Shown in pieces: positions 128-18,390 of a stretch of 46,738 nucleotides of DNA. Made by a program: the position numbers and the translations under genes. The notes beneath the pieces were generated by a model. It was not told the origin of the DNA, ran no database searches, and was given only the letters and a program-made list of their open reading frames with translations. Each line of letters opens with the position of its first letter. The first letter of the stretch is position 1. The stretch is from assembly GCF_004364155.1 (NCBI RefSeq), contig NZ_SOAZ01000025.1, positions 1 through 46,738 of the forward strand, written 5' to 3'. The DNA comes from Fonticella tunisiensis (lineage in GTDB: Bacteria > Bacillota > Clostridia > Clostridiales > Caloramatoraceae).

Positions 128-562
128 TTGGAAGAGAGAGCAGTTGAAGCTGCAGCATCTCTTAGTTGGTTCTTTCTGTCAAATTCTGTATCTGTAAATA
201 TGTACGTAAATGCATTAAAGCTTCATTATATAAGAGGAAGGGACATAAAAGAATTTAAGAATTTTCAGGAGATATTTTGTGAGGTTACATCGGATGGATA
301 CAATTCGCTAAAGGATGTTTTGGAAAAGAGAATAAAGCTCATTGCCAGAGGATCTTCCTTGATAATTATTACAGGTGATCTTGGAAGTGAGGATGCAAGG
401 GCCTTTGAAGCGATTAAAGAAATGGGATACGATATAGTTCTAATATTTATCAGCGATGAAGAGCTTGAAGATGATATAAAATCTGTTCTTTCTAATTCGG
501 AAATAAGGATGTATTTTGTTACATCGGAATCTGATATAAAGGGGGTACTAGAATCAAAATGA
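128..562 (+). CDS. DUF58 family protein, C-terminal fragment (5' part missing or broken)
   Basis: The motif EERAVEAAASL near the N-terminus matches the segment of DUF58 (von Willebrand A-like) proteins that follows the conserved Asp-containing loop, so only the last third of a usual 380-420 aa protein is present. The reading frame is closed upstream by stops at 41-43 and 59-61. The listed start is a TTG with no good ribosome binding site, so it is probably just the first permitted codon and not a real start. The stop overlaps the ATG of the next gene (ATGA), which is the translational coupling expected of the common DUF58-transglutaminase pair. The family is often linked to a MoxR ATPase; that part would lie outside the window. 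The gene may be truncated by a contig edge, a frameshift or a rearrangement within the first 120 bases. Confidence 0.55.
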   Translation: MEERAVEAAASLSWFFLSNSVSVNMYVNALKLHYIRGRDIKEFKNFQEIFCEVTSDGYNSLKDVLEKRIKLIARGSSLIIITGDLGSEDARAFEAIKEMGYDIVLIFISDEELEDDIKSVLSNSEIRMYFVTSESDIKGVLESK

Positions 563-3165: not shown

Positions 3166-3804
3166 TTATAAAGCCTCAGATTTAACCCTTAAAATAGCCT
3201 GCTTAAATTGAGGTATCATGACTATTATAAGGGCAATGATTAATTCAACTGAAAGGAATGAACCGTTATATATAATCGAATACAGAACAGGGCTCATACC
3301 TTCAGGAGCATAGTCTGCAAAGAAAAATACTCCAGATAAAAAGTTAAATATAAATCTTCCTAAAACTCCAACTGTAACACCAATGGGAAAATTGTTTTTA
3401 AAGTATCCAGCAAGCCCTAATGCACCAAAGGCAAATGGATAATCTATTAAAACCTGAAACCAGTGTACTATATATGGATCTTGAATAAATTGAAGTATTC
3501 CATAGACCATTCCAGCTAATATACCTTCCATGGGGCCAAATATAAAGGCATAGAACATTATAGGCAGCATACTTCCAAGGGTGACAGAACCTCCCTGGGG
3601 CATCTTATAAAGCCTTATATATGAAAGAATAAAGGCTAGCGCGACGCATAAACTTCCATATGTAAGCTTTTTAGTATTAAATTTTTCATCCCTTTCCAGG
3701 ATTCTTGAAATGAGTAGAGATGCGGCAATCAAGCCCAGCATAAATGCCCAGCTTTGAAGCTTGATTTCGGGAATTTTTTTAAACATGTTGATAAAGTAAT
3801 ACAT
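3166..3804 (-). CDS. thiT: Thiamine ECF transporter substrate-binding subunit ThiT
   Basis: A hydrophobic protein of about 212 aa with some six membrane segments, matching the ThiT/YuaJ S-component family in length and in the GGSVTLGSMLPI segment and the W-x-x-L-x-D-Y region used for thiamine binding. S components bind the vitamin in the membrane and work with a shared EcfT-EcfA-EcfA' module. The ATG at 3804 is chosen because GGAGGAGG lies 7 bases upstream; an upstream frame adding 15 residues would start inside the regulatory hairpin. A TPP riboswitch precedes it. The ECF module in the next operon is more likely dedicated to B12, so a housekeeping module elsewhere probably serves ThiT. Confidence 0.92.
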   Translation of the reverse strand: MYYFINMFKKIPEIKLQSWAFMLGLIAASLLISRILERDEKFNTKKLTYGSLCVALAFILSYIRLYKMPQGGSVTLGSMLPIMFYAFIFGPMEGILAGMVYGILQFIQDPYIVHWFQVLIDYPFAFGALGLAGYFKNNFPIGVTVGVLGRFIFNFLSGVFFFADYAPEGMSPVLYSIIYNGSFLSVELIIALIIVMIPQFKQAILRVKSEAL

Positions 3805-3811
3805 AAAAAAC

Positions 3812-3844
3812 CTCCTCCTTTTTACCGATGCAAAATAGGAGAAG
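3812..3844 (-). promoter_or_regulatory. Shine-Dalgarno sequestering hairpin of the TPP riboswitch
   Basis: On the minus strand CUUCUCCU (3844-3837) can pair with AGGAGGAG (3819-3812), which is the thiT ribosome binding site, across a 17-nt loop (eight pairs, one of them G-U). No T run follows, so the switch probably acts on translation, not on termination. Confidence 0.6.
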
Positions 3845-3849
3845 AGCAA

Positions 3850-3936
3850 TTGTGCTTCCCTTCGCCGGAATTACCCGGTTCAGGTTCAGAGGGTCGAAGG
3901 TTTAACCTTCCTCTCAGCATAACGCTCCCCTAGCAT
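3850..3936 (-). promoter_or_regulatory. TPP (thiamine pyrophosphate) riboswitch, THI element
   Basis: The minus strand carries the conserved THI-box blocks in order: GGGGAGC, GCTGAGAGG, GACCCTCTGAACCTGA and CGGGTAATTCCGGCGAAGGGA. It lies directly in front of thiT. Binding of TPP is expected to switch thiT off. Confidence 0.95.
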
Positions 3937-3944
3937 CAGGTTTA

Positions 3945-4009: not shown

Positions 4010-4450
4010 TTATTTTTCTTTATCCCTTAGCTCTAAAGCAAATGCTACAGCATCCTCCAATACGGGCCTGCAGCATTTGCCTGAGGGGTTTTGGGTTTTA
4101 CACTGACAGCCCTTCATTGCTCCCGTCTTTGAGATAATATCCTCAACGGTTGATGAAGTTTTTTTAATAGCTATTTCATCAATAATGTCCTTCAAAGTAA
4201 CGTTTTTGCAGTAGCATATTATTGGGTTGTCCTGTTCTTTAAACCACACCGGAACCTTTAAATCCCTCTGAAAATATATTTCGTCTGTGTCGTTGTTATA
4301 GTAAACAACATTGCATTTTGGATTGGTACAAAAACCATATGTATAGGATTTAAGATGCTTTCTAAAATAATCCTTAACAAGACTTTCTACTGTAATTAAA
4401 GCTACCCTGTCACCCTCTTGCTTGCAAAGAGGACATAGATCCATAGTCAT
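4010..4450 (-). CDS. CopZ N-terminal-domain-like zinc/[2Fe-2S] binding protein
   Basis: A 146-aa cysteine-rich protein. CPLCKQEG near the N-terminus, followed by FCTNPKCNVVYY, forms a zinc-binding half. CYCKNVT followed by CQCKTQNPSGKCC forms a BFD-like [2Fe-2S] half. This order matches the N-terminal domain of Archaeoglobus-type CopZ, which binds Zn and a [2Fe-2S] cluster. The C-terminal heavy-metal-associated domain of CopZ (M-x-C-x-x-C) is absent, so it is the stand-alone form common in anaerobes. The ATG at 4450 is preferred because GAGGTG lies 6 bases upstream; an in-frame GTG at 4459 lies inside that site. Role unknown: a metal chaperone, redox or sensor function is possible. Confidence 0.72.
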   Translation of the reverse strand: MTMDLCPLCKQEGDRVALITVESLVKDYFRKHLKSYTYGFCTNPKCNVVYYNNDTDEIYFQRDLKVPVWFKEQDNPIICYCKNVTLKDIIDEIAIKKTSSTVEDIISKTGAMKGCQCKTQNPSGKCCRPVLEDAVAFALELRDKEK

Positions 4451-4591
4451 TTTAATCACCTCACTAAATAATTATATTACAAAGGATGGAAAATTAAATA
4501 AGTTTATAAGTAAATGAAATATATTTTTAATTGCAGCGATGTTCTGTAAATTGAATCTTTAATTTAAAAAGGCAAATATTTTTCCAGAACA

Positions 4592-4620
4592 TTGAAATTT
4601 CATTTTGGAAAGATTATAAT
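4592..4620 (+). promoter_or_regulatory. Promoter of the cobalamin uptake operon
   Basis: TTGAAA (4592-4597) and TATAAT (4615-4620) have a 17-base spacer, just before the riboswitch. Confidence 0.7.
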
Positions 4621-4635
4621 TTAATTGATAAGTGA

Positions 4636-4798
4636 ATAACGGTATAGGTGCTCCGGGAGACCGGAGTTAAAAGGGAAAGTGGTGTGAAGCCACTGCAGCC
4701 CCCGCTACTGTAAGTGAGTATGAAACCTGATATGCCACCTTTAGGGAAGGCCAGGGAGTAAGATGATCCACGAGCCAGGAAACCTGCCTGTACTTGAA
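4636..4798 (+). promoter_or_regulatory. Cobalamin (adenosylcobalamin) riboswitch
   Basis: Contains the diagnostic parts in order: an initial TATAGGTGC block, GGGAA, the B12 box GTGTGAAGCCACTGC, CCCCCGCTACTGTAA, the GCCAGG block and a GAGCCAGGAAACCTGCC block. It precedes the ECF operon, which links that transporter to B12. Ligand binding is expected to stop expression. Confidence 0.95.
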
Positions 4799-4824
4799 AT
4801 TTAAGCACCTTCGGAGGGAAGGGA

Positions 4825-4870
4825 GCTTTAAAATTGATTTTAAAGCCCTTTTCCGGGCTTTTTATTTTTC
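4825..4870 (+). terminator. Riboswitch terminator with overlapping antiterminator
   Basis: The terminator is AAAGCCC (4842-4848) with GGGCTTT (4855-4861) followed by a T-rich run. An alternative perfect 10-bp hairpin, GCTTTAAAAT (4825-4834) with ATTTTAAAGC (4837-4846), uses the same 5' arm. The two are mutually exclusive, which is the layout of a transcriptional switch. Confidence 0.7.
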
Positions 4871-4898
4871 CCTCCAAACCTGGAGGAAAGGAGGAAAG

Positions 4899-5777
4899 AT
4901 GAAACGCAATTATAATATATTTCATGTTCTCACATTGGCTTTTACAAGCATTATACTCATGATAATAATTTTTTCTTGTGAAAGCCCATTAATTTTAACA
5001 GGCATATTTATATATTTCTTAGTAGTTTTCATTACATGCGGACATTCAAAGGATATAAAAGACGGGTTTAAATATTTTGCGCCTTTTTTTGCAGTTACGT
5101 TAATCATAAATATGATTTTTGTAACTGATGGTACAATAATGCTTTTCAAAGCCTTTGGCAAAGATTTTACCCTTGAGTCTCTAATAGTTTCCTTTATGCT
5201 TTCCTTCAAGCTTTTGCTTATTATGTACCTGTTTATGATGATGGGCATAATGATCGATTCGGATAGGGCCGTTTCATTTTTTTCCAGCAAAATGCCCAAA
5301 TCCACATTGATGATGATGGTGACCTTCAAGTTATTCCCCAGCATGAAAAACAGATTGGTAACCCTTAAGCAAATATACAGCATAAGGGGAGTGGATTTTG
5401 AAGGAAAGGGTATGAGGGAAAGAATAAAGGCCTTTATACCGATTCTGTCAATTCTTCTTGAAAGTTCCTTAGACGGAGCCTTTGACATCGGTGAAGCTGC
5501 CTATGTGAAGGGGTTTTTGAGTGGGAAACGAACTGTATATGACAGGCAGACCTTTGGAAGGAAGGATTATATTGTAACCCTTTATGCATTTCTACTCATC
5601 GTTGTTTATTTATTTTTTAGGATTAGCGGAAGCTTAAACTTTGATATATATATAGGTATTGATGTATCAAAATTTATCAATTTAGGTGCAATAACTGTTT
5701 TTATAATGCTTCTTATGCTTGCAGCATTAATTTTAATTTTGACTGAGGAGAATGAAGATGGCTTACATAGATATTAA
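4899..5777 (+). CDS. ecfT: ECF transporter transmembrane (T) component
   Basis: A protein of about 292 aa with five to six membrane segments. The two Ala-Arg-Gly-like coupling motifs of EcfT are seen as YSIRGVDF and AAYVKGF, which dock into grooves of the two ATPase domains. The ATG at 4899 follows two GGAGG sites; a longer frame beginning at 4794 would start inside the riboswitch and is rejected. It is the first gene of the cobalamin-riboswitch operon and overlaps the ATPase gene by 20 bases. Having its own T, A and S genes in one operon is the dedicated (group I) ECF arrangement. Confidence 0.9.
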   Translation: MKRNYNIFHVLTLAFTSIILMIIIFSCESPLILTGIFIYFLVVFITCGHSKDIKDGFKYFAPFFAVTLIINMIFVTDGTIMLFKAFGKDFTLESLIVSFMLSFKLLLIMYLFMMMGIMIDSDRAVSFFSSKMPKSTLMMMVTFKLFPSMKNRLVTLKQIYSIRGVDFEGKGMRERIKAFIPILSILLESSLDGAFDIGEAAYVKGFLSGKRTVYDRQTFGRKDYIVTLYAFLLIVVYLFFRISGSLNFDIYIGIDVSKFINLGAITVFIMLLMLAALILILTEENEDGLHRY

Positions 5778-7374
5778 AGGTTTAAGTTATTCTTATCCCG
5801 ATGAAAGGGATAGGGCATTGAAGGATGTAAGTTTAGAGATAGAAAAGGGAGAAATTTTTCTTTTAATGGGGGATTCAGGTTCAGGAAAATCAACTCTGCT
5901 TAAGTGCATCTCTGGGGCAATACCCTATTTTTATGGAGGAACTCTATGGGGAAAAATTGAGATTCAGGGGAAAGCAGTGGAGAACATGACGCACCAGGAG
6001 AGGTCGGGAACAATAGGAATGATTTTTCAGGATCCCGAGAGGCAGCTTTTGATGAATAAAGTTCACAGAGAAATAGCCTTTGGATTAGAAAATATTGGTG
6101 TGGAGGAAAAAAACATTAAAAGGAGAGTATGGGAGGCGCTTCAGTTCTCCAACATACAGGATATTGCTCTTCAGGATATAAATACTCTATCAGGGGGGCA
6201 GAAACAGAGGGTTGCAATTACTTCGGCAGTTGCCGGTTTGCCCCAATGTATACTGCTGGATGAGCCTACTTCACAGCTTGATCCTTCCTCCGCCGAAGAG
6301 GTGGTTGAACTTATAAAAAAAATAAATGATGAGCTTGGCATAACTATCGTTGTGGTTGAGCAGAGGGTTGACAGGTGGTTTCAAATATGCGACAGGATAG
6401 GAATAATGAAGGATGGTATGCTTTTATTTGTTGGAACACGTGAGGAGCTTTACTTAAGTGATGATGAATATTTAAGAGGATTTTTACCGACCCGTTTGAA
6501 GCTTGCAAAGGCTCTTGGCATAGAGAAAATGCCCCTTACCATTAGGGAAACGCGAAGGGCATTAGGCAGATTTGAATTCCGCCTGAAGGAGGATAAGCAT
6601 AAAGGAAGCTCTAAATGCATCCTGTCAATTAAAAACCTTTACTGCGGCTATGGAAATGAAGAAATACTCAGGGGAATAAATCTCTTAGTTAATGAAGGGG
6701 ATTTCATCGGGATTTTTGGTCCAAACGGAGCAGGAAAGAGTACGCTGCTTAAGAGCATTATGGGCCTTTTAAAATATTCGGGAAGCATAAGGATAATGGA
6801 TAAAGAAGTTAAAAATTTAGGGGTGAGGGACATTGCACTGATATCGGGATACGTATCCCAGAATCCAAATGATTATATATCTAAAGACACGGTTTATGAT
6901 GAATTGAAATTTACGCTTGATAATTATGGCATTAAGGATGATGGTGTTATAGATATTACTCTTAAAGACCTCAATATTTATGAACTCAGACATAAAAATC
7001 CAAGGGACATAAGCGGAGGAGAAAGGCAGAGGGTTGCAATTGCTTCCATTCTGGTATTAAGGCCAAAGCTGCTTCTTCTTGATGAACCCACGAGGGGGCT
7101 TGATTTTGAAGCAAAAAGAAAGCTGGGCAGAGTTTTAAAATCTCTGAATAAAAATGGAACAACGATAATTTTAATAACACACGATGTTGATTTTGCAAGC
7201 GAGTTCTGCGATAGATTCGGAATTATTTTTAACGGAGAGATAGTATCGATAGGCACAAGGGAAGAAGTTTTAAGTGAAAGCATTTACTATACTACGGAAA
7301 TTAATAAGCTGCTCAGAGACAAGAATAAAAGAATTTTCAGTCTGGAACAGGCCTTGAGTTCTGTCAGGAGGTAG
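5758..7374 (+). CDS. ECF transporter ATPase with two fused ABC domains (EcfA-EcfA')
   Basis: A 538-aa protein with two complete nucleotide-binding domains. The first has Walker A GDSGSGKST (residues 38-46) and signature LSGGQKQRV. The second has Walker A GPNGAGKST (from residue 321), signature ISGGERQRV and LLLDEPTRGLD. In many ECF systems these are two separate proteins; here they form one chain. The ATG at 5758 is chosen because GAGGAG lies 7 bases upstream, while the in-frame ATG at 5752 lies only one base after it. It powers vitamin import together with EcfT and the downstream S component. Confidence 0.93.
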   Translation: MAYIDIKGLSYSYPDERDRALKDVSLEIEKGEIFLLMGDSGSGKSTLLKCISGAIPYFYGGTLWGKIEIQGKAVENMTHQERSGTIGMIFQDPERQLLMNKVHREIAFGLENIGVEEKNIKRRVWEALQFSNIQDIALQDINTLSGGQKQRVAITSAVAGLPQCILLDEPTSQLDPSSAEEVVELIKKINDELGITIVVVEQRVDRWFQICDRIGIMKDGMLLFVGTREELYLSDDEYLRGFLPTRLKLAKALGIEKMPLTIRETRRALGRFEFRLKEDKHKGSSKCILSIKNLYCGYGNEEILRGINLLVNEGDFIGIFGPNGAGKSTLLKSIMGLLKYSGSIRIMDKEVKNLGVRDIALISGYVSQNPNDYISKDTVYDELKFTLDNYGIKDDGVIDITLKDLNIYELRHKNPRDISGGERQRVAIASILVLRPKLLLLDEPTRGLDFEAKRKLGRVLKSLNKNGTTIILITHDVDFASEFCDRFGIIFNGEIVSIGTREEVLSESIYYTTEINKLLRDKNKRIFSLEQALSSVRR

Positions 7375-7378
7375 CCGG

Positions 7379-8065
7379 ATGAGAAAATTAAGCATATATT
7401 TAACGACATTTTTTATCAGCATACTTCTGTTTTTAACAATAACAGGCAAAATACAGGAGTACATTCCATTATTTGTCACCATTGTTGTTTTAGCAATACT
7501 GATTTTAAGTTATATGTATTTTGAGAAAAGCGCTATGGGTACTAAAGAAATTGCTGTTATAGCAACATTAAGTGCATTTGCAGGTGTAGGCAGAGCTATA
7601 TTTGCCTTTGCACCTGGTGTTCAGCCAACCACCTTTATTGTAGCCATTTCAGGGTTTGTGTTTGGTCCTTATGAAGGATTTTTAGTGGGAAGTACAGCTG
7701 CTTTTATATCCAATATATTTCTTGGTCAGGGGCCATGGTCTCCATGGCAGATGTTTGGCTGGGGTATTGTTGGCGTGATTTCAGGAATTATAGGTAAAGC
7801 AAGGGCTAATATTTCAGTAGAAAAATTTTCGGTTATATGCTTTTTGTATGGATTTCTATTTGACTGGATAATGAATTTATGGCACGTACTTGGATATATA
7901 AGGCCTTTAACTTTAAAGAGCATAATATCAGCATATGCGCTGGGGCTGACATTTGATGTTTTACATGCCATATCCAATTTTTTATTTTCTATGATCTTTT
8001 TCGAAAGGCTTGTTAGAGTTTTAAGGAGGTTTAAAAGAAGGCTTGAGATAACCTATATAAGATAG
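7379..8065 (+). CDS. ECF transporter S component, probably cobalamin-specific
   Basis: A 228-aa, highly hydrophobic protein of about six membrane segments, with the S-component-like core ATLSAFAGVGRAIFAFAPG and GFVFGPYEGFLVGS, resembling the general ECF substrate-specific family. It starts 5 bases after the ATPase stop with AGGAGG in front. Cobalamin specificity is inferred from the upstream B12 riboswitch and the downstream DUF4430 proteins, not from recognised binding residues. It is not a CbiM, because the N-terminal metal-binding histidine sequence of that family is missing. Confidence 0.82.
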   Translation: MRKLSIYLTTFFISILLFLTITGKIQEYIPLFVTIVVLAILILSYMYFEKSAMGTKEIAVIATLSAFAGVGRAIFAFAPGVQPTTFIVAISGFVFGPYEGFLVGSTAAFISNIFLGQGPWSPWQMFGWGIVGVISGIIGKARANISVEKFSVICFLYGFLFDWIMNLWHVLGYIRPLTLKSIISAYALGLTFDVLHAISNFLFSMIFFERLVRVLRRFKRRLEITYIR

Positions 8066-8079
8066 TTGGAGGTAAAGTT

Positions 8080-10530
8080 ATGAAAAAGAGAATAATAAGT
8101 ATTTTTTTAATAGGGATTTTAGCATTAACTCAGGGATTGTTTATATTAAATAATAAGGTAAAGGCAGAGACTAACAGCTTTTTGGTTCCAGTTAGAATTG
8201 AGGGCTTAAATGGAACTATTGCAGAGGGCAGCGCAAAGGGAGAGAATGCACTGGAAATAGTAAAAAATGTTTTAAATGAAAACAAGATACCATTTACGAT
8301 TTCAAGAGCAAGTTGGGGTAGCTTATATATAAGTTCTATAAATGGATTAAGCGAAAAGAAATTCGGCGGGTATGATGGATGGTTATACTACATTAAAACC
8401 AGGGACTCAGTGATATCGCCAATGTCAGGTTTGGACGGGTATTTTCCAAAGGAAGGTGAAAGCATAATTCTGTATTACGGGGATTTTTCAACTCCCTATG
8501 TTAACAGCATAGTGTTTATACCGGAAATTGTAAAAGAAAATGAAAGGTTCAAAATGAAGTTTGTATATAAAAACTTTGACTGGATCTCAAATTCCGAAGT
8601 AATAACTCCTATAAAGGGTGCAATTGTAAGTATAGATAACATAAACTATATAACTAACGATAGCGGAGAAATAGAAATAACCGGACTTTCAAAGGGCGAA
8701 CATACATATAGAATAAGCGGATATAATATAGACAAACTGCCAACCGTTGTTATGGACAAGGGTACCTTCATAATTGATAATGAACACTCACCAAGCTTTA
8801 ACTATACTGACTCCCGTTTTAATGAAGTGACAAGGGATAATACCGGTATTGTGAAGGATATAAATAAAGAAATAAGGGATACTTTAGGTTATATAAAAAA
8901 CAACACTGCTGAGCCCTGGGCAGCAGTTACCCTCAACAAATTTTCTATAAAACCCGATGGTGATTATGTAAAGAAAAATGCAGAAGAAATCTTCAAATAC
9001 GGTGTAAAGGATTACAGCAATACGGATTTGGAGAAACTTATAATTCATCTTACGGCCTCAGGATACAGTCCGTATAACTTTATGGGATATAACCTTGTAT
9101 CAGAACTTTTTAATAGAGATATAAACAAATTTTATATAAACGATATTATTTTCGGGCTCATAAGCTATAAATATGCGAACATTCCTGAAGAGTATAAAAT
9201 AACAAAAAGGCAGTTGGTTGATTTGCTTCTGGATAAGCAGCTTAAATATGAACTAAATGGAGTTGAATATAGGGGATGGGCTCTATATGGGAATAGAATA
9301 AATCCTGATATTACAGGTATAGCAATAAATGCTCTTTCTGAGTTTTATGATTTAATACCAGAGGTAAAGGATTCTGTAGATGGCGCAGTACAGAGCCTTT
9401 CAAAACTTCAGGATAAAGAGGGATATTTGCATGATGAATATGGGCGTTTCAGTGAAAGTATATCCTTTGCTATACTTGGATTAACTTCTATCGGTATAAA
9501 CCCTGAGGGAATCCTCTTTACAAAGGAAAGGGGCGACCTTGTTTCTGCACTCCTTTCATTTAAGGGAACTAATGGTCAGTTTAAACATTCTCTGGATGGT
9601 GGAAATAACTACATAGCAACAGAACAGGCATTACGAGCACTAATAGCATTACAGGAATTTAAAAATACCGGAAAATATGATTTTTATAAGAGCAGCATTA
9701 ATTCAGAGGAACTATCTAAGTACAATTATGTGCCAAGTGTGGATTCAAACCAGGATGGTTACAAAAGCAAAGGCTCCTTCATTTCAAAAAATAGCAAAGT
9801 AGTTAATGAAAATACTTATGAAAATGAAAGTGCAAGTACTGATGAAGGTAAAGAAAAAAATGCTGTGGACTCAATGGAAGAATACAAAGGCGAAATAATA
9901 AAGAACGAAGCTGAAACCATTTTAAAGCTTTTAGAAAGGGTCCCGGATGGTACTGTGATAAAAATAGATGCATCACAAAATACAAGGGTTAGCAAGGAGG
10001 TCTTCGATTCTATAAAGGGAACCAACAAGATTTTAAGTTTTGAAGTTGATGGATTGGTATGGATATTCAGAGGAACGGATATAACCCAGGAAACCAAGGA
10101 CATTGACTTGGGACTTAATAAACTGTCTGAACATAGAGAAAAGATACTTGGAAAGGTAAAGGGAGCATATATAGTATCGTTTAAGGATAATGGCATACTT
10201 CCGGGAAAGGCAGAGGTAAGAATTAAGCTGGATTCGGGCTGGCTGAACGGGAAAAACAGGAATAACATTTATTTATATTATTATAATGCTGAAGAAGATA
10301 AGATTGAAAAAATTTCAGGACCTCTGGGTGTAGATTATGAGGGGTATATTACCATAAACATTACCCACTGTAGTGATTATTTCCTAATCGATAGAGATTT
10401 AACCGCAGTAAAGGATAAAGGAAACATCACTACAATAGGCTGGATAGGTATAGGTTTTATGATTGCTGGTGCGGCAGCAACAGCCGTAATGTTAATTAGA
10501 AATAACGTTAGAAAGGGTAAGGTGGCATGA
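8080..10530 (+). CDS. Surface-anchored transcobalamin-like protein (DUF4430 + alpha-toroid)
   Basis: An 816-aa exported protein. Residues 1-29 are a signal peptide. About 35-150 form a DUF4430 domain (GGYDGWLYYIKTRDS, then GESIILYYGD), the family related to the C-terminal beta domain of intrinsic factor and transcobalamin. About 150-230 are Ig-like. About 265-535 carry helical repeats of the terpenoid-cyclase/transcobalamin toroid type (EPWAAVTLNKFSI, then DLEKLIIHLTASGYSPYNFMG). About 600-770 are a beta-rich surface module ending in ITHCSDYFLI. A hydrophobic segment and basic tail (about 785-816) anchor it in the membrane. The gene sits in the B12-riboswitch operon, so capture of cobalamin or a corrinoid outside the membrane is inferred. 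Domain order is opposite to the human proteins. Confidence 0.8.
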   Translation: MKKRIISIFLIGILALTQGLFILNNKVKAETNSFLVPVRIEGLNGTIAEGSAKGENALEIVKNVLNENKIPFTISRASWGSLYISSINGLSEKKFGGYDGWLYYIKTRDSVISPMSGLDGYFPKEGESIILYYGDFSTPYVNSIVFIPEIVKENERFKMKFVYKNFDWISNSEVITPIKGAIVSIDNINYITNDSGEIEITGLSKGEHTYRISGYNIDKLPTVVMDKGTFIIDNEHSPSFNYTDSRFNEVTRDNTGIVKDINKEIRDTLGYIKNNTAEPWAAVTLNKFSIKPDGDYVKKNAEEIFKYGVKDYSNTDLEKLIIHLTASGYSPYNFMGYNLVSELFNRDINKFYINDIIFGLISYKYANIPEEYKITKRQLVDLLLDKQLKYELNGVEYRGWALYGNRINPDITGIAINALSEFYDLIPEVKDSVDGAVQSLSKLQDKEGYLHDEYGRFSESISFAILGLTSIGINPEGILFTKERGDLVSALLSFKGTNGQFKHSLDGGNNYIATEQALRALIALQEFKNTGKYDFYKSSINSEELSKYNYVPSVDSNQDGYKSKGSFISKNSKVVNENTYENESASTDEGKEKNAVDSMEEYKGEIIKNEAETILKLLERVPDGTVIKIDASQNTRVSKEVFDSIKGTNKILSFEVDGLVWIFRGTDITQETKDIDLGLNKLSEHREKILGKVKGAYIVSFKDNGILPGKAEVRIKLDSGWLNGKNRNNIYLYYYNAEEDKIEKISGPLGVDYEGYITINITHCSDYFLIDRDLTAVKDKGNITTIGWIGIGFMIAGAAATAVMLIRNNVRKGKVA

Positions 10531-11129
10531 AACGAAGAGGGATGCTCATTGCGGCAGTTATACTTTTTTCCCTGGGTGTAATGTTGTTTGCAAAGGGCTA
10601 TCAGAGAAACTACATAGCCTCTAATGCAGAAAACGCAGATGTAAACATTGAAGTGACTGGCACAAATCAAAATCAGGCTAAACAAAATGATAATCAGATT
10701 AAGCAGGAGCAGAATCGGATAAAGGAACAAAATAAAGAAGTAGATAGGAACAAAAATAACGATGATGCCAGTAACCCATCTAAAAGCGAACCACAAAAGC
10801 AGGAGAAAGCAAAGGACAATATAATTTTTTTGGATACAATAAGTGGGAAAAAAATACTGTCCGCAAGCACAAATATAGAGAACAGGACTGTGGCTGAGGT
10901 AACCATTGAAATGCTAAAAAGCAAGGGAATAAGGTACAGGGCTGTTGGAGCAGGAGAAACTATATATTTCTCCATGATTGCCAATTTAAAGGAAAGAGAT
11001 GCAGGCCCTGAGAGCGGATGGTGTTATTTTGTAAATGGGAAAAAGTACAGCGTGGGTGCTGGAGTATATAGACTTAAAAGGGATGATGTACTTGAGTGGA
11101 AGTTTTTGAAGGATGGAGTTAAACCCTGA
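10527..11129 (+). CDS. Membrane-anchored DUF4430 protein
   Basis: A 200-aa protein with an N-terminal membrane anchor (about residues 5-23), a long hydrophilic Asn/Gln/Lys-rich linker (about 45-95) and a C-terminal DUF4430 domain (about 100-198) with the typical GWCYFVNGKKYSVGAG and DDVLEWKF motifs. It overlaps the preceding gene by four bases (ATGA), so the two are translated together. By family and operon it probably binds the corrinoid or receives it from the larger protein and passes it to the S component. The linker would let the domain reach through the cell wall. Function is inferred from context. Confidence 0.78.
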   Translation: MKRRGMLIAAVILFSLGVMLFAKGYQRNYIASNAENADVNIEVTGTNQNQAKQNDNQIKQEQNRIKEQNKEVDRNKNNDDASNPSKSEPQKQEKAKDNIIFLDTISGKKILSASTNIENRTVAEVTIEMLKSKGIRYRAVGAGETIYFSMIANLKERDAGPESGWCYFVNGKKYSVGAGVYRLKRDDVLEWKFLKDGVKP

Positions 11130-11140
11130 ATAGTTAATTG

Positions 11141-11185
11141 AGGGCATGGAAGTTTAAATTAACTTTAATGCCCTATTATATTTTT
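11141..11185 (+). terminator. Terminator of the cobalamin operon
   Basis: AGGGCAT (11141-11147) pairs with ATGCCCT (11168-11174) and a T-rich stretch follows. Confidence 0.7.
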
Positions 11186-11187
11186 CT

Positions 11188-11216
11188 TTGTCAATGTAAA
11201 TAATTTATGTTAGTAT
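11188..11216 (+). promoter_or_regulatory. Promoter of the HAD phosphatase gene
   Basis: TTGTCA (11188-11193) and TAGTAT (11211-11216) with a 17-base spacer, shortly before the gene. Confidence 0.5.
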
Positions 11217-11249
11217 ATTTTTTAGTAGAATTTAAAAGCAGGTGATGGC

Positions 11250-12086
11250 ATGAAATACAAATTGGTAGCAATGGATATGGATGGTACTTTGTTAAATGAC
11301 AACAAAGAGGTGAGTGAAAGGACAAAGGAAACTTTAAAAAAGGCAGCGGATCTTGGAGTGAAGCTTGTTGTGTGCACTGGAAGAATATTTGCATCCGCAA
11401 GGATTTATGCAGGGATAATTGGAACAAAGGCTCCTATAATAGCGTCAAATGGCGCCTATATAAGGGAGAAGGATAGCGAAAGAATCATTTATGAGAAGTA
11501 TATGAATCCCCAAAAGGTGCGAAAGCTTGTCGAGATGGCAAAAAAATATGGTTTTAAACCCACTTTATTTACAGCCGATACAGTATTCGCCGAAGAAATA
11601 TCCTTTATATCAGCAAACTATAAAAAGTGGAATGAGAGTCTGCCAGAAGGTGACAGGATAAAGATTGAAGTAGTAAATAATTTTGATGAGGTAATAGAAA
11701 AAAACAGAAACAGACTTTTAAAGGCTGTAATTATGGGGGATGATATAGATGGTCTACATAAGCTTCGAAGGGAGATTAGGGAAACTGTTGAAGTAGCAGA
11801 TTTATCTATTGCATCTTCGTATTCAAATAATTTTGAGGTTATGGAATATGGCGTTTCAAAGGGAGAGGCAGTAAAATTTCTTGCGAACTATTTTAATATA
11901 TCATCAGATGAGGTTATATGTATAGGTGACAATGAAAACGATATCAGCATGATTCAGTATGCAGGCCTTGGGATAGCGATGGGGAATGCAGAGGATTATG
12001 TTAAAAATATAGCTGACTATGTAACAGACACCAATGAGAATGATGGAGTTGCCAAGGCCATCGAAAAGTTTGTCTTAAATTGTTGA
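11250..12086 (+). CDS. Cof-type HAD superfamily phosphatase
   Basis: A 278-aa protein of the Cof/YidA branch of haloacid dehalogenase-like hydrolases. Motif I is DMDGT with nucleophile Asp9 and general acid Asp11. Motif II Thr is in VVCTGR, motif III Lys is in GVSKGEA, and motif IV is GDNENDISM. The C2-type cap lies between motifs II and III. Family members dephosphorylate small sugar phosphates, flavin or pyridoxal phosphates in the cytoplasm; the substrate cannot be read from the sequence. It has its own promoter and sits alone between the cobalamin operon and two tRNA genes. GCAGGTGATGGC precedes the ATG. Confidence 0.93.
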   Translation: MKYKLVAMDMDGTLLNDNKEVSERTKETLKKAADLGVKLVVCTGRIFASARIYAGIIGTKAPIIASNGAYIREKDSERIIYEKYMNPQKVRKLVEMAKKYGFKPTLFTADTVFAEEISFISANYKKWNESLPEGDRIKIEVVNNFDEVIEKNRNRLLKAVIMGDDIDGLHKLRREIRETVEVADLSIASSYSNNFEVMEYGVSKGEAVKFLANYFNISSDEVICIGDNENDISMIQYAGLGIAMGNAEDYVKNIADYVTDTNENDGVAKAIEKFVLNC

Positions 12087-13121: not shown

Positions 13122-13225
13122 ATTTATTGGTAATATTATAAAAATCGATAGCAAAATTTTTGATAATGCCTTATAATGAAATTGGAGAGCATAATTTAAA
13201 ATATAATATTCTGGATGATGCAAAT

Positions 13226-13320
13226 GGGAGAGACCCGATTAGGGCGCCGAAGGGGTAAGTCAAATTTGCCAGATTTGATGATACTCTCAGGCAAAAGTAC
13301 TGTTTGCTGACAGGCCTCTG
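13226..13320 (+). promoter_or_regulatory. Glycine riboswitch (single aptamer)
   Basis: The conserved blocks GGGAGAGAC, GCGCCGAAGGGG and CTCTCAGGCAAAAG are present once. A rho-independent terminator follows, so the switch most likely acts on transcription and opens when glycine is high. It controls the glycine reductase operon. A weak upstream -10 (TATAAT at 13172-13177) is present. Confidence 0.93.
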
Positions 13321-17040: not shown

Positions 17041-17063
17041 TCCACCGGGGGGGATTGCCAGTG

Positions 17064-18365
17064 ATGCGAATTGTCCATTATATAAACCAATTCTTTGGTC
17101 AGATAGGTGGAGAAGAAAAGGCCCATATACCACCTCAAATAAGGGAGGGTATTGTAGGACCGGGAATGGCCTTTAAACAGGCCCTAAGGGGTGAGGCAGA
17201 AATTGTAGCCACAATTATTTGTGGCGATTCATATTTTGCTGAAAACGAAGCAAAGGCTAAGGCTGAAATACTTAATATGGTCAAAAAATATTATCCTGAT
17301 ATATTTATTGCAGGACCCGCATTTAATGCAGGAAGATACGGTATAGCATGCGGTACAATTGCCAAAGCTGTTAAGGATGAACTTGGTATTCCCGTTGTGA
17401 CGGGTATGTACGTTGAAAACCCTGGAGTTGAAATGTTCAGAAGGGATATATACATTATATCCACAAAGAACAGCGCGGCAGGTATGAGGGATGCGGTTTT
17501 AAAGATGGCTGCTATGGCTCTCAAGCTTGCAAAGGGGGAAAGAATTGGCTCACCGGCAGATGAGGGATATGTTGAAAGAGGAATTAGAGTAAATTATTTT
17601 GCCGGGGAGAGAGGCTCAAAAAGAGCAGTTGACATGCTCATCAAGAAAATAAAAGGAGAAGCATTTTTAACGGAGTTCAAAATGCCTGAATTTGACAGAG
17701 TTATCCCAAATCCACCTGTTCAAGATATTACAAAGGCAAAAATTGCCCTTGTAACGTCCGGTGGAATTGTACCAAAGGGCAATCCAGACAGGATTGAGGC
17801 ATCAAGTGCTTCTAAATATGGTGAATACGACATAGAAGGAGTTTTTGATTTAACCGGGGAAACATTTGAAACAGCACACGGAGGGTATGATCCGGTATAT
17901 GCCAACATGGATGCAGACAGGGTGCTTCCGGTCGACGTACTAAGGGATTTAGAAATGGAAGGCAGGATAGGTAGCCTTCATAGATACTACTATGCCACTG
18001 TAGGGAATGGTACATCGGTTGCCAACGCTAAAAGATTCGGTGCAGAGATAGCAAAGAAGCTTTTATTAGATGGGGTTAATGCCGTGATTTTAACTTCCAC
18101 CTGAGGTACCTGTACGCGTTGCGGTGCAACCATGGTAAAGGAGATTGAAAGGGCGGGGCTTCCTGTTGTTCATATGTGTACGATTGTTCCTATTTCAAAG
18201 ACAGTTGGAGCAAATAGAATAGTACCTACAGTTGCTATTCCACATCCACTTGGAAATCCAAACCTATCGCGGGCAGAGGAAAAGGCATTAAGAAGAAAAC
18301 TTGTAGAAAGAGCCCTCAAGGCACTTCAAACACCAGTTGGCGACCAAACAGTATTTGAAGAATAG
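17064..18365 (+). CDS. grdB: Glycine reductase protein B selenoprotein subunit (in-frame UGA = Sec)
   Basis: A 433-aa selenoprotein with in-frame TGA at 18102-18104 (residue 347) in the motif S-T-U-G-T-C-T-R-C. It is the large subunit of protein B and is thought to activate the C-N bond of glycine bound to the GrdE pyruvoyl group. The N-terminus MRIVHYINQFFGQIGGEEKA is typical. The start is taken at ATG 17064; GTG 17061 and TTG 17055 are also possible, with GGGGGGGA at 17047-17054. The part after the UGA (GATMVKEIERAGLPVVH) continues the family alignment. Confidence 0.96.
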
Positions 18366-18370
18366 TACAG

Positions 18371-18390
18371 AGGGGGATGATTATCCCCCT
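18371..18390 (+). other. Intergenic hairpin between grdB and grdC
   Basis: AGGGGGAT (18371-18378) pairs with ATCCCCCT (18383-18390), just after grdB. There is no T run. Differential expression or stability of the protein B and protein C genes is a possible use. Confidence 0.55.

Follow-up and report, generated by a model that had tools for sequence, protein, structure and literature searches.

A cobalamin-riboswitch operon of Fonticella tunisiensis with a CbrT-type ECF importer and two surface proteins of predicted transcobalamin-type fold

Operon layout, leader RNA and importer genes

This analysis concerns an operon on contig NZ_SOAZ01000025.1 of Fonticella tunisiensis (assembly GCF_004364155.1), in a window of 46,738 nt, the whole stretch of DNA analysed. 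In the region 4592-11185, a cobalamin (vitamin B12) riboswitch precedes five genes (Table 1), which encode an EcfT-like transmembrane protein (T), a fused double ATPase, a CbrT-type S component and two surface proteins with SLBB/DUF4430 domains, an exported one of 816 aa and a membrane-anchored one of 200 aa. The operon probably serves B12 (cobamide) scavenging (probability roughly 0.78): the surface proteins would capture the vitamin and a CbrT-type energy-coupling factor (ECF) transporter would import it, in a host that makes no corrin ring of its own. Results obtained directly by computation are the riboswitch, the conserved gene set, the relationship to CbrT, the predicted folds and the finding of no corrin methylase genes.

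A sequence-only reading of this DNA had placed a B12 riboswitch, EcfT, a double ATPase and an S component here, all co-oriented, and each of them was recovered, by RF00174, by an EcfT-like open reading frame (ORF) in a conserved position but just below its Pfam cut-off, by TIGR04520 above its cut-off and by a match to CbrT. The proposed end points of 4592 and about 11185 also held, as the single forward-strand unit runs from a sigma-70-like site at 4592 to a hairpin ending near 11174. The region 4450-11260 has 34 sigma-70-like sites (24.3 in shuffles), of which the one opening the operon is the best; the 3' hairpin was not in the program's terminator list for the region. The junctions between the five ORFs are, in order, a 26-base overlap, gaps of 4 and 14 bases and a 4-base overlap; the genes, described as overlapping, thus overlap at two of the four junctions.

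The RF00174 model was matched along its full length (1-189) and the riboswitch is the sole cobalamin riboswitch detected in the genome. The predicted antiterminator hairpin that follows the aptamer overlaps the 5' arm of a terminator-like stem, an arrangement which we take to be the layout of a transcription-attenuating riboswitch. From these predicted hairpins we infer control by transcription termination. In 13 related leaders (the Clostridium/Caloramator-type loci with a Rfam match, leaving out the broken locus L050, described below) a GC stem followed by a T run could be seen by eye in 11, and no clear terminator in L037 and L047.

Table 1. Features of the operon and of the 816-aa protein. 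Nucleotide positions are those of the window; the domain names of the 816-aa protein are our interpretation of the predicted model.
Feature	Position	Strand	Basis
Sigma-70-like promoter, TTGAAA-17-TATAAT	4592..4620	+	Consensus match only, 11/12 positions
Cobalamin riboswitch aptamer, RF00174	4629..4805	+	123 bits, cut-off 31.5, E 1.6e-30
Predicted antiterminator hairpin	4825..4846	+	Fold of 4815-4862, -19.7 kcal/mol, z -2.7
Predicted intrinsic terminator of riboswitch leader	4842..4861	+	Stem of 7 bp with T-rich tail
EcfT-like transmembrane protein, 292 aa	4899..5777	+	PF02361 CbiQ; same-place homologs in related loci
Fused double ECF ATPase (EcfA-EcfA'), 540 aa	5752..7374	+	Two ABC_tran stretches, TIGR04520
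CbrT-type S component, 228 aa	7379..8065	+	phmmer and profile matches to 6fnp_A
816-aa exported surface protein	8080..10530	+	AlphaFold2 model, fold search, DUF4430 24.9 bits
816-aa protein, SLBB/DUF4430 beta domain	residues about 36-136, after signal helix		Model
816-aa protein, Ig-like domain	residues 143-240		Model
816-aa protein, alpha/alpha toroid	residues about 255-548		Model
816-aa protein, low-confidence linker	residues 554-608		Model
816-aa protein, low-confidence C-terminal domain	residues 606-780		Model
816-aa protein, C-terminal helix	residues 783-815		Model
200-aa membrane-anchored SLBB/DUF4430 protein	10527..11129	+	N-terminal helix 4-31, SLBB domain about 96-199
Predicted operon terminator hairpin and T-rich tail	11141..11174	+	Fold of 11125-11190, z -4.0

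The EcfT-like ORF, whose ATG start was picked by hand from the sequence, scores 24.1 bits against PF02361, just below the cut-off of 25; its homologs occupy a conserved position in related loci. The double ATPase has two ABC_tran stretches (E 9.6e-60) and reaches 368.6 bits against TIGR04520 (cut-off 315); besides the ECF ATPase models it also passes the cbiO model TIGR01166. In the window and in related loci the ATPase domains and the S component are encoded together in one operon, as in group I ECF transporters, and the presence of the operon's own T and ATPase genes is presumably the group I layout.

The S component is loosely named by Pfam and NCBIfam. As a single sequence (phmmer) it gave 6fnp_A as its sole match to solved structures at E ≤ 1 (E 3e-10), and a profile of eight orthologs gave 6fnp_A at E 3e-17 against 0.26 for the next S component chain. 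By this relationship of sequences it belongs to the CbrT family and, on the same basis, would transport cobalamin. 6FNP is the ECF-CbrT complex of Lactobacillus delbrueckii, shown in PMC5997447 to transport cobalamin and cobinamide; that paper also names a gene, cbrS, next to cbrT in this species. There CbrT uses an ATPase/T module common to several S components, whereas the Fonticella operon has dedicated T and ATPase genes plus two surface SLBB proteins. It is unlikely, though far from fanciful, that the ligand proper is not cobalamin but another cobamide or an incomplete corrinoid, for example cobinamide; import of cobinamide by ECF-CbrT (PMC5997447) favours this, as does the fact that a riboswitch does not specify the corrinoid imported.

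Two proteins of the genome (completeness 99.5, contamination 2.75) have a B12-binding domain above cut-off, one being a methylmalonyl-CoA mutase C-terminal domain and the other a B12-type radical SAM protein; a third match falls below cut-off. A search for the corrin pathway, which covered the TP-methylase family alone, returned three proteins, for which the best names are CobA-HemD, rRNA methylase and YabN, and no corrin-ring methylase. The presence of B12-binding proteins with no corrin methylases found points to a host that uses B12 and is probably unable to make the corrin ring. A second B12 route may exist elsewhere in the genome, where the gene of one Peripla_BP_2 protein has permease and ATPase genes next to it, a possible ATP-binding cassette (ABC) importer. 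In NCBIfam the Peripla_BP_2 protein matches models named for iron or siderophores, each of them below cut-off, and the permease and ATPase match BtuC/BtuD models, likewise below cut-off.

Cobalt import of the CbiMNQO type, instead of B12 import, would fit the best Pfam match of EcfT (CbiQ) and the passing of the cbiO model by the ATPase. However, CbiQ/CbiO-type modules serve ECF importers generally, the S component matches ECF-ribofla_trS, ECF_trnsprt and CbrT but not CbiM, and the TP-methylase search of the genome found no corrin methylases, for which cobalt would be required. We set cobalt import aside as barely credible.

Predicted folds of the two surface proteins

The 200-aa protein has a strong DUF4430 match (E 7.6e-13), which with its N-terminal helix bears out the earlier description of a second, anchored DUF4430 protein. 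Its model has a predicted local distance difference test score (pLDDT) > 90 across residues 91-200. In a fold search the top 15 entries were haptocorrin, intrinsic factor, transcobalamins and the bacterial structure 3u7z (Z 11.2-13.3), and the next was a MoaD relative (Z 7.3). The domain aligned over 93 to 100 residues with the B12 carriers versus 76 with MoaD; these aligned lengths suggest a possible beta-hairpin insert after the helix. A match to 5l0p was dropped, since it covers repeated ETV6 sequence within a fusion protein.

The model of the 816-aa protein (AlphaFold2, 22 sequences) has a mean pLDDT of 76 and a predicted template modelling score (pTM) of 0.47, with residues 31-550 mostly at pLDDT > 85. 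By sequence its DUF4430 domain is marginal: the genome search gave 24.9 bits (cut-off 23.8), and hmmscan did not return it at E ≤ 1. The fold search is supportive: in Foldseek the model matched the human transcobalamin beta domain (5no0) with E 7.3e-5 and a TM-score by target of 0.71, in row 7. The six rows above it, taken up by chains of complement C3 and by a polysaccharide lyase, have a root mean square deviation (rmsd) of 23-31 Å; neither these nor later C3, C4 and macroglobulin rows were used. From the fold matches of the two models, both surface proteins carry a predicted transcobalamin-type beta domain. A fold in common with B12 carriers does not in itself demonstrate B12 binding.

A helical toroid, guessed earlier from sequence, is present in the predicted structure. 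In VIA-align its top matches were terpene cyclases (Z 19.4), squalene-hopene and drimenyl diphosphate cyclases being the best, and the 816-aa family has a weak sequence-profile match to one terpene cyclase-type structure (E 0.003). These are the grounds for seeing in the toroid protein an extracellular enzyme with a terpene cyclase, lyase or hydrolase fold. Such a role is very improbable for a protein that is exported and encoded under a B12 riboswitch, and whose toroid region also matches haptocorrin (Z 16.3, 245 residues aligned, 3.5 Å; row 43 among the best 50).

Related loci and genome survey

The core of the 816-aa protein served to scan a collection of 84,980 species; 49 of the 100 pattern matches encode a relative. 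By tblastn, T, ATPase, S, beta domain, toroid and 200-aa protein were all matched in 26 of the 49 loci, and homologs of the ATPase and the CbrT-like S component in 36, with differing gene orders. The scoring of parts is blunt: a beta-domain match may fall in the small gene, and L038 was scored as having no toroid solely because its single match exceeds the limit set. A plasmid search with the 816-aa protein gave one record, whose best place covers 37% of the query.

In Clostridium/Caloramator-type loci the order is T, ATPase, S, 816-like, 200-like. Cohnella/Paenibacillus loci (L051-L058 and L060) have a toroid-first surface gene followed by 200-like, T, ATPase and S, T not being matched in L053, and in the Paenibacillaceae relatives of the 816-aa protein the toroid precedes the beta domain. 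The two lie on separate genes in Ruminococcus metagenome-assembled genomes (MAGs; L065, L066, L068 and L069) and in a Clostridia MAG (L076). Retention of the same gene set despite these differing orders argues for joint function. In the operon copy of Caloramator sp. mosi_1 (L050) the matches to the T, ATPase, S and surface genes fall in several frames, from either assembly errors or decay.

Rfam found RF00174 in 25 of the 28 loci submitted, out of the 49, and no riboswitch in L046, L049 and L071. A pattern made of the B12 box and an upstream motif was positive in 12 and negative in nine of the remaining 21; it failed in 11 loci where Rfam found the riboswitch, so it undercounts. The surface proteins are anchored in several ways: an LPxTG motif occurs in 10 of the 16 loci L034-L049, SLH domains occur in the scanned surface proteins of L051, L059 and L064 (Paenibacillaceae) and of L072, and lipobox-like cysteines are visible in the alignment of the small (200-like) protein.

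A survey of DUF4430 genes downstream of B12 riboswitches, proposed in the earlier reading, was carried out in 98 genomes across the class, the Fonticella genome included, and supported the association. DUF4430 occurred in 47 genomes and a cobalamin riboswitch in at least 81. At least 56 of 116 DUF4430 matches, in at least 29 of the 47 genomes, have a cobalamin riboswitch no more than 10 kb upstream on the same strand, where approximately 0.54 would be expected by chance (assuming 2.5 Mb genomes). These are domain matches, several per protein, two of them in the window; with the window excluded the count is at least 54 of 114, and by open frames it is at least 46 of 105. Seen from the other side, DUF4430 is downstream of 34 of 150 riboswitches among the matches listed.

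CbrT-like S genes were found in 44 of the 98 genomes. Both S and DUF4430 were present in 41, S alone in three, DUF4430 alone in six and neither in 48 (Fisher test, p 1.7e-17, a value that ignores shared ancestry and uses an S profile made from sequences of the window and its relatives). Of 47 S genes, 33 have a DUF4430 match within 10 kb on the same strand.

A proposed route of cobamide uptake

The earlier proposal of a dedicated, B12-regulated ECF importer with two transcobalamin-fold surface proteins gains support, as an interpretation, from the CbrT-like S component, the association across many genomes and the fold matches. The operon is real and well conserved, most likely a cobamide uptake unit, and, as gene annotation, ordinary. 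When B12 is scarce, the riboswitch leader would permit continued transcription. The 816-aa protein, held in the envelope by its C-terminal helix, would use its transcobalamin-type beta domain and its toroid to catch the cobamide; the 200-aa SLBB protein, on a shorter tether, would pass it, or help to pass it, to the CbrT-type S component, and the dedicated T and double-ATPase module would drive it through the membrane. Capture of cobamide by the surface proteins is likely, and a putative relay between them is possible. We infer cobamide binding by these proteins, the hand-over between them and its direction.

Systems of this kind have been predicted. Burroughs et al. (2007; PMC1796856) defined the SLBB superfamily and described bacterial toroid-SLBB surface fusions in either order, together with operons that pair a second extracellular SLBB protein with CbiO/CbiQ genes. 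Their hosts were described as usually having no key B12 synthesis enzymes, and B12 scavenging was suggested. The Fonticella operon, with an exported toroid and SLBB protein, a second SLBB paralog and CbiO/CbiQ genes, is therefore an instance of an already predicted kind. The words 'riboswitch' and 'S component', both of which apply here, are absent from the text of that paper. New here are the link to a riboswitch, the recognition of the S component as CbrT-type, the match of the predicted structures to the carriers, the relatives with split genes and the genome counts.

The 816-aa protein resembles animal transcobalamin, intrinsic factor and haptocorrin in its beta domain fold and alpha/alpha toroid, both predicted here, and differs in its reversed domain order, intervening Ig-like domain and membrane anchor. 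Independent evolution of the same two-domain clamp, as first suggested, is not supported: PMC1796856 had already described a transcobalamin-like SLBB clade of Gram-positive bacteria, from which it proposed that the animal carriers derive. Common ancestry with the animal carriers is the better reading, because the beta domain fits that clade. Surface proteins that aid B12 uptake are also described in Bacteroidetes, namely BtuG and BtuH (PMC6977713, PMC8941943). BtuG is a beta-propeller working with BtuB (PMC6977713), whereas the Fonticella system is Gram-positive and next to an ECF importer. The literature, judged by titles and abstract openings, gave no test of B12 binding by a bacterial SLBB/DUF4430 protein.

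Several observations weigh against capture by the surface proteins or against a general link of their domains with B12. Matches of the 816-aa model to whole transcobalamin or intrinsic factor had TM-scores by target of 0.33-0.44 and rmsd of 6-10 Å; where more than one domain is spanned, such scores mean that the two-domain arrangement of the carriers is not matched. The order from beta domain through Ig-like domain to toroid is the reverse of that in animal carriers and, with the poor whole-carrier matches and the pTM of 0.47, leaves any closing of the two domains on a ligand hypothetical. The comparison with carriers by structure prediction, as earlier suggested, thus delivered the beta domain and the toroid but not their joint arrangement. 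The toroid fold is common (322 chains at Z ≥ 8), many other toroids outscore haptocorrin, and transcobalamin and intrinsic factor are absent from the best 50 of the 322 toroid matches. Sequence-profile searches of PDB with the 816-aa and 200-aa families found no B12 carrier at E ≤ 1. S components, moreover, are described in PMC5997447 as being themselves the substrate-binding protein, so a capture protein is not strictly required.

The distribution adds to these points. The 816-aa protein had no match in 31 of 60 relatives searched, and 13 of the 49 loci have no ATPase and S pair, six of the 13 being cut by contig ends (L045, L061, L067, L074, L075 and L077). Among the others, no ECF genes or riboswitch-pattern match were found in the flanks of L070, L080 and L081, and four Paenibacillus/Bacillus loci have toroid/SLBB genes and a riboswitch signal (by Rfam in L059 and L063, by pattern in L062 and L064) with no ECF genes found nearby. 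In the survey, 32 of the 116 DUF4430 matches are near neither a CbrT-like S gene nor a riboswitch among the matches listed, so DUF4430 by itself does not imply B12.

Six short matches of these 32 were hand-picked for inspection (L090-L095). In L090:4814-5780, L091:4468-5480 and L092:4564-5468 a small DUF4430 gene adjoins a gene for a protein of 172 to 182 aa, hydrophobic by eye, with no Pfam or NCBIfam match. The S profile gave 31.4 bits for the neighbour in L092, 29.5 bits for that in L091 and none for that in L090; the L091 neighbour, the sole one of the three compared with CbrT (6fnp_A), matched weakly (E 2.6e-4). Very few as they are, these two-gene units hint at possible minimal pairs of SLBB protein and S component. 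The neighbours in L093 (a 138-aa hydrophobic protein), L094 (DUF624) and L095 (a chloride channel) are no known S components.

The surface proteins might belong to the B12 regulon and yet not bind free cobamide, docking B12-carrying proteins or cells instead, or acting as an envelope scaffold, while CbrT alone captures. The commonness of the toroid fold and the variety of anchors (LPxTG, SLH, lipobox-like cysteines) would suit such roles. Against them stand the strong pairing with CbrT-like genes and a beta domain that belongs to the B12-carrier type and is clearly separated from other beta-grasp folds. We regard non-binding surface proteins as improbable and favour cobamide capture at the surface followed by ECF import.

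A broader proposal is put forward tentatively, and may well prove wrong. CbrT-type ECF importers of Bacillota could form a class that works with dedicated extracellular binding proteins, an SLBB/toroid catcher held at the wall or membrane plus a membrane-near SLBB hand-over protein; the SLBB protein and the CbrT-like S component would be the minimal core, the toroid would have been added, and the animal carriers would be a borrowed copy of the catcher. An extracellular stage dedicated to capture would extend the picture of ECF importers, which are described as depending on a membrane S component to bind substrate, and would explain how walled, B12-dependent bacteria compete for the scarce vitamin. 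The operon would also offer bacterial relatives that bear on the published proposal for the origin of animal B12 carriers. It makes both the 2007 prediction and a possible binding-protein stage of ECF importers open to direct test.

Other features of the window include a second vitamin uptake unit close to the B12 operon. It encodes a ThiT thiamine S component (3166-3941, - strand; TIGR02357 above cut-off) under a thiamine pyrophosphate (TPP) riboswitch, on the strand opposite the operon. A glycine riboswitch lies at 13215-13312. The gene at 17055-18377 encodes a selenoprotein, with an in-frame TGA at codon 350 (peptide context TUGTCTRCGA) directly followed by a SECIS_4 element at 18105-18142; the protein resembles, we presume, the glycine reductase subunit GrdB.

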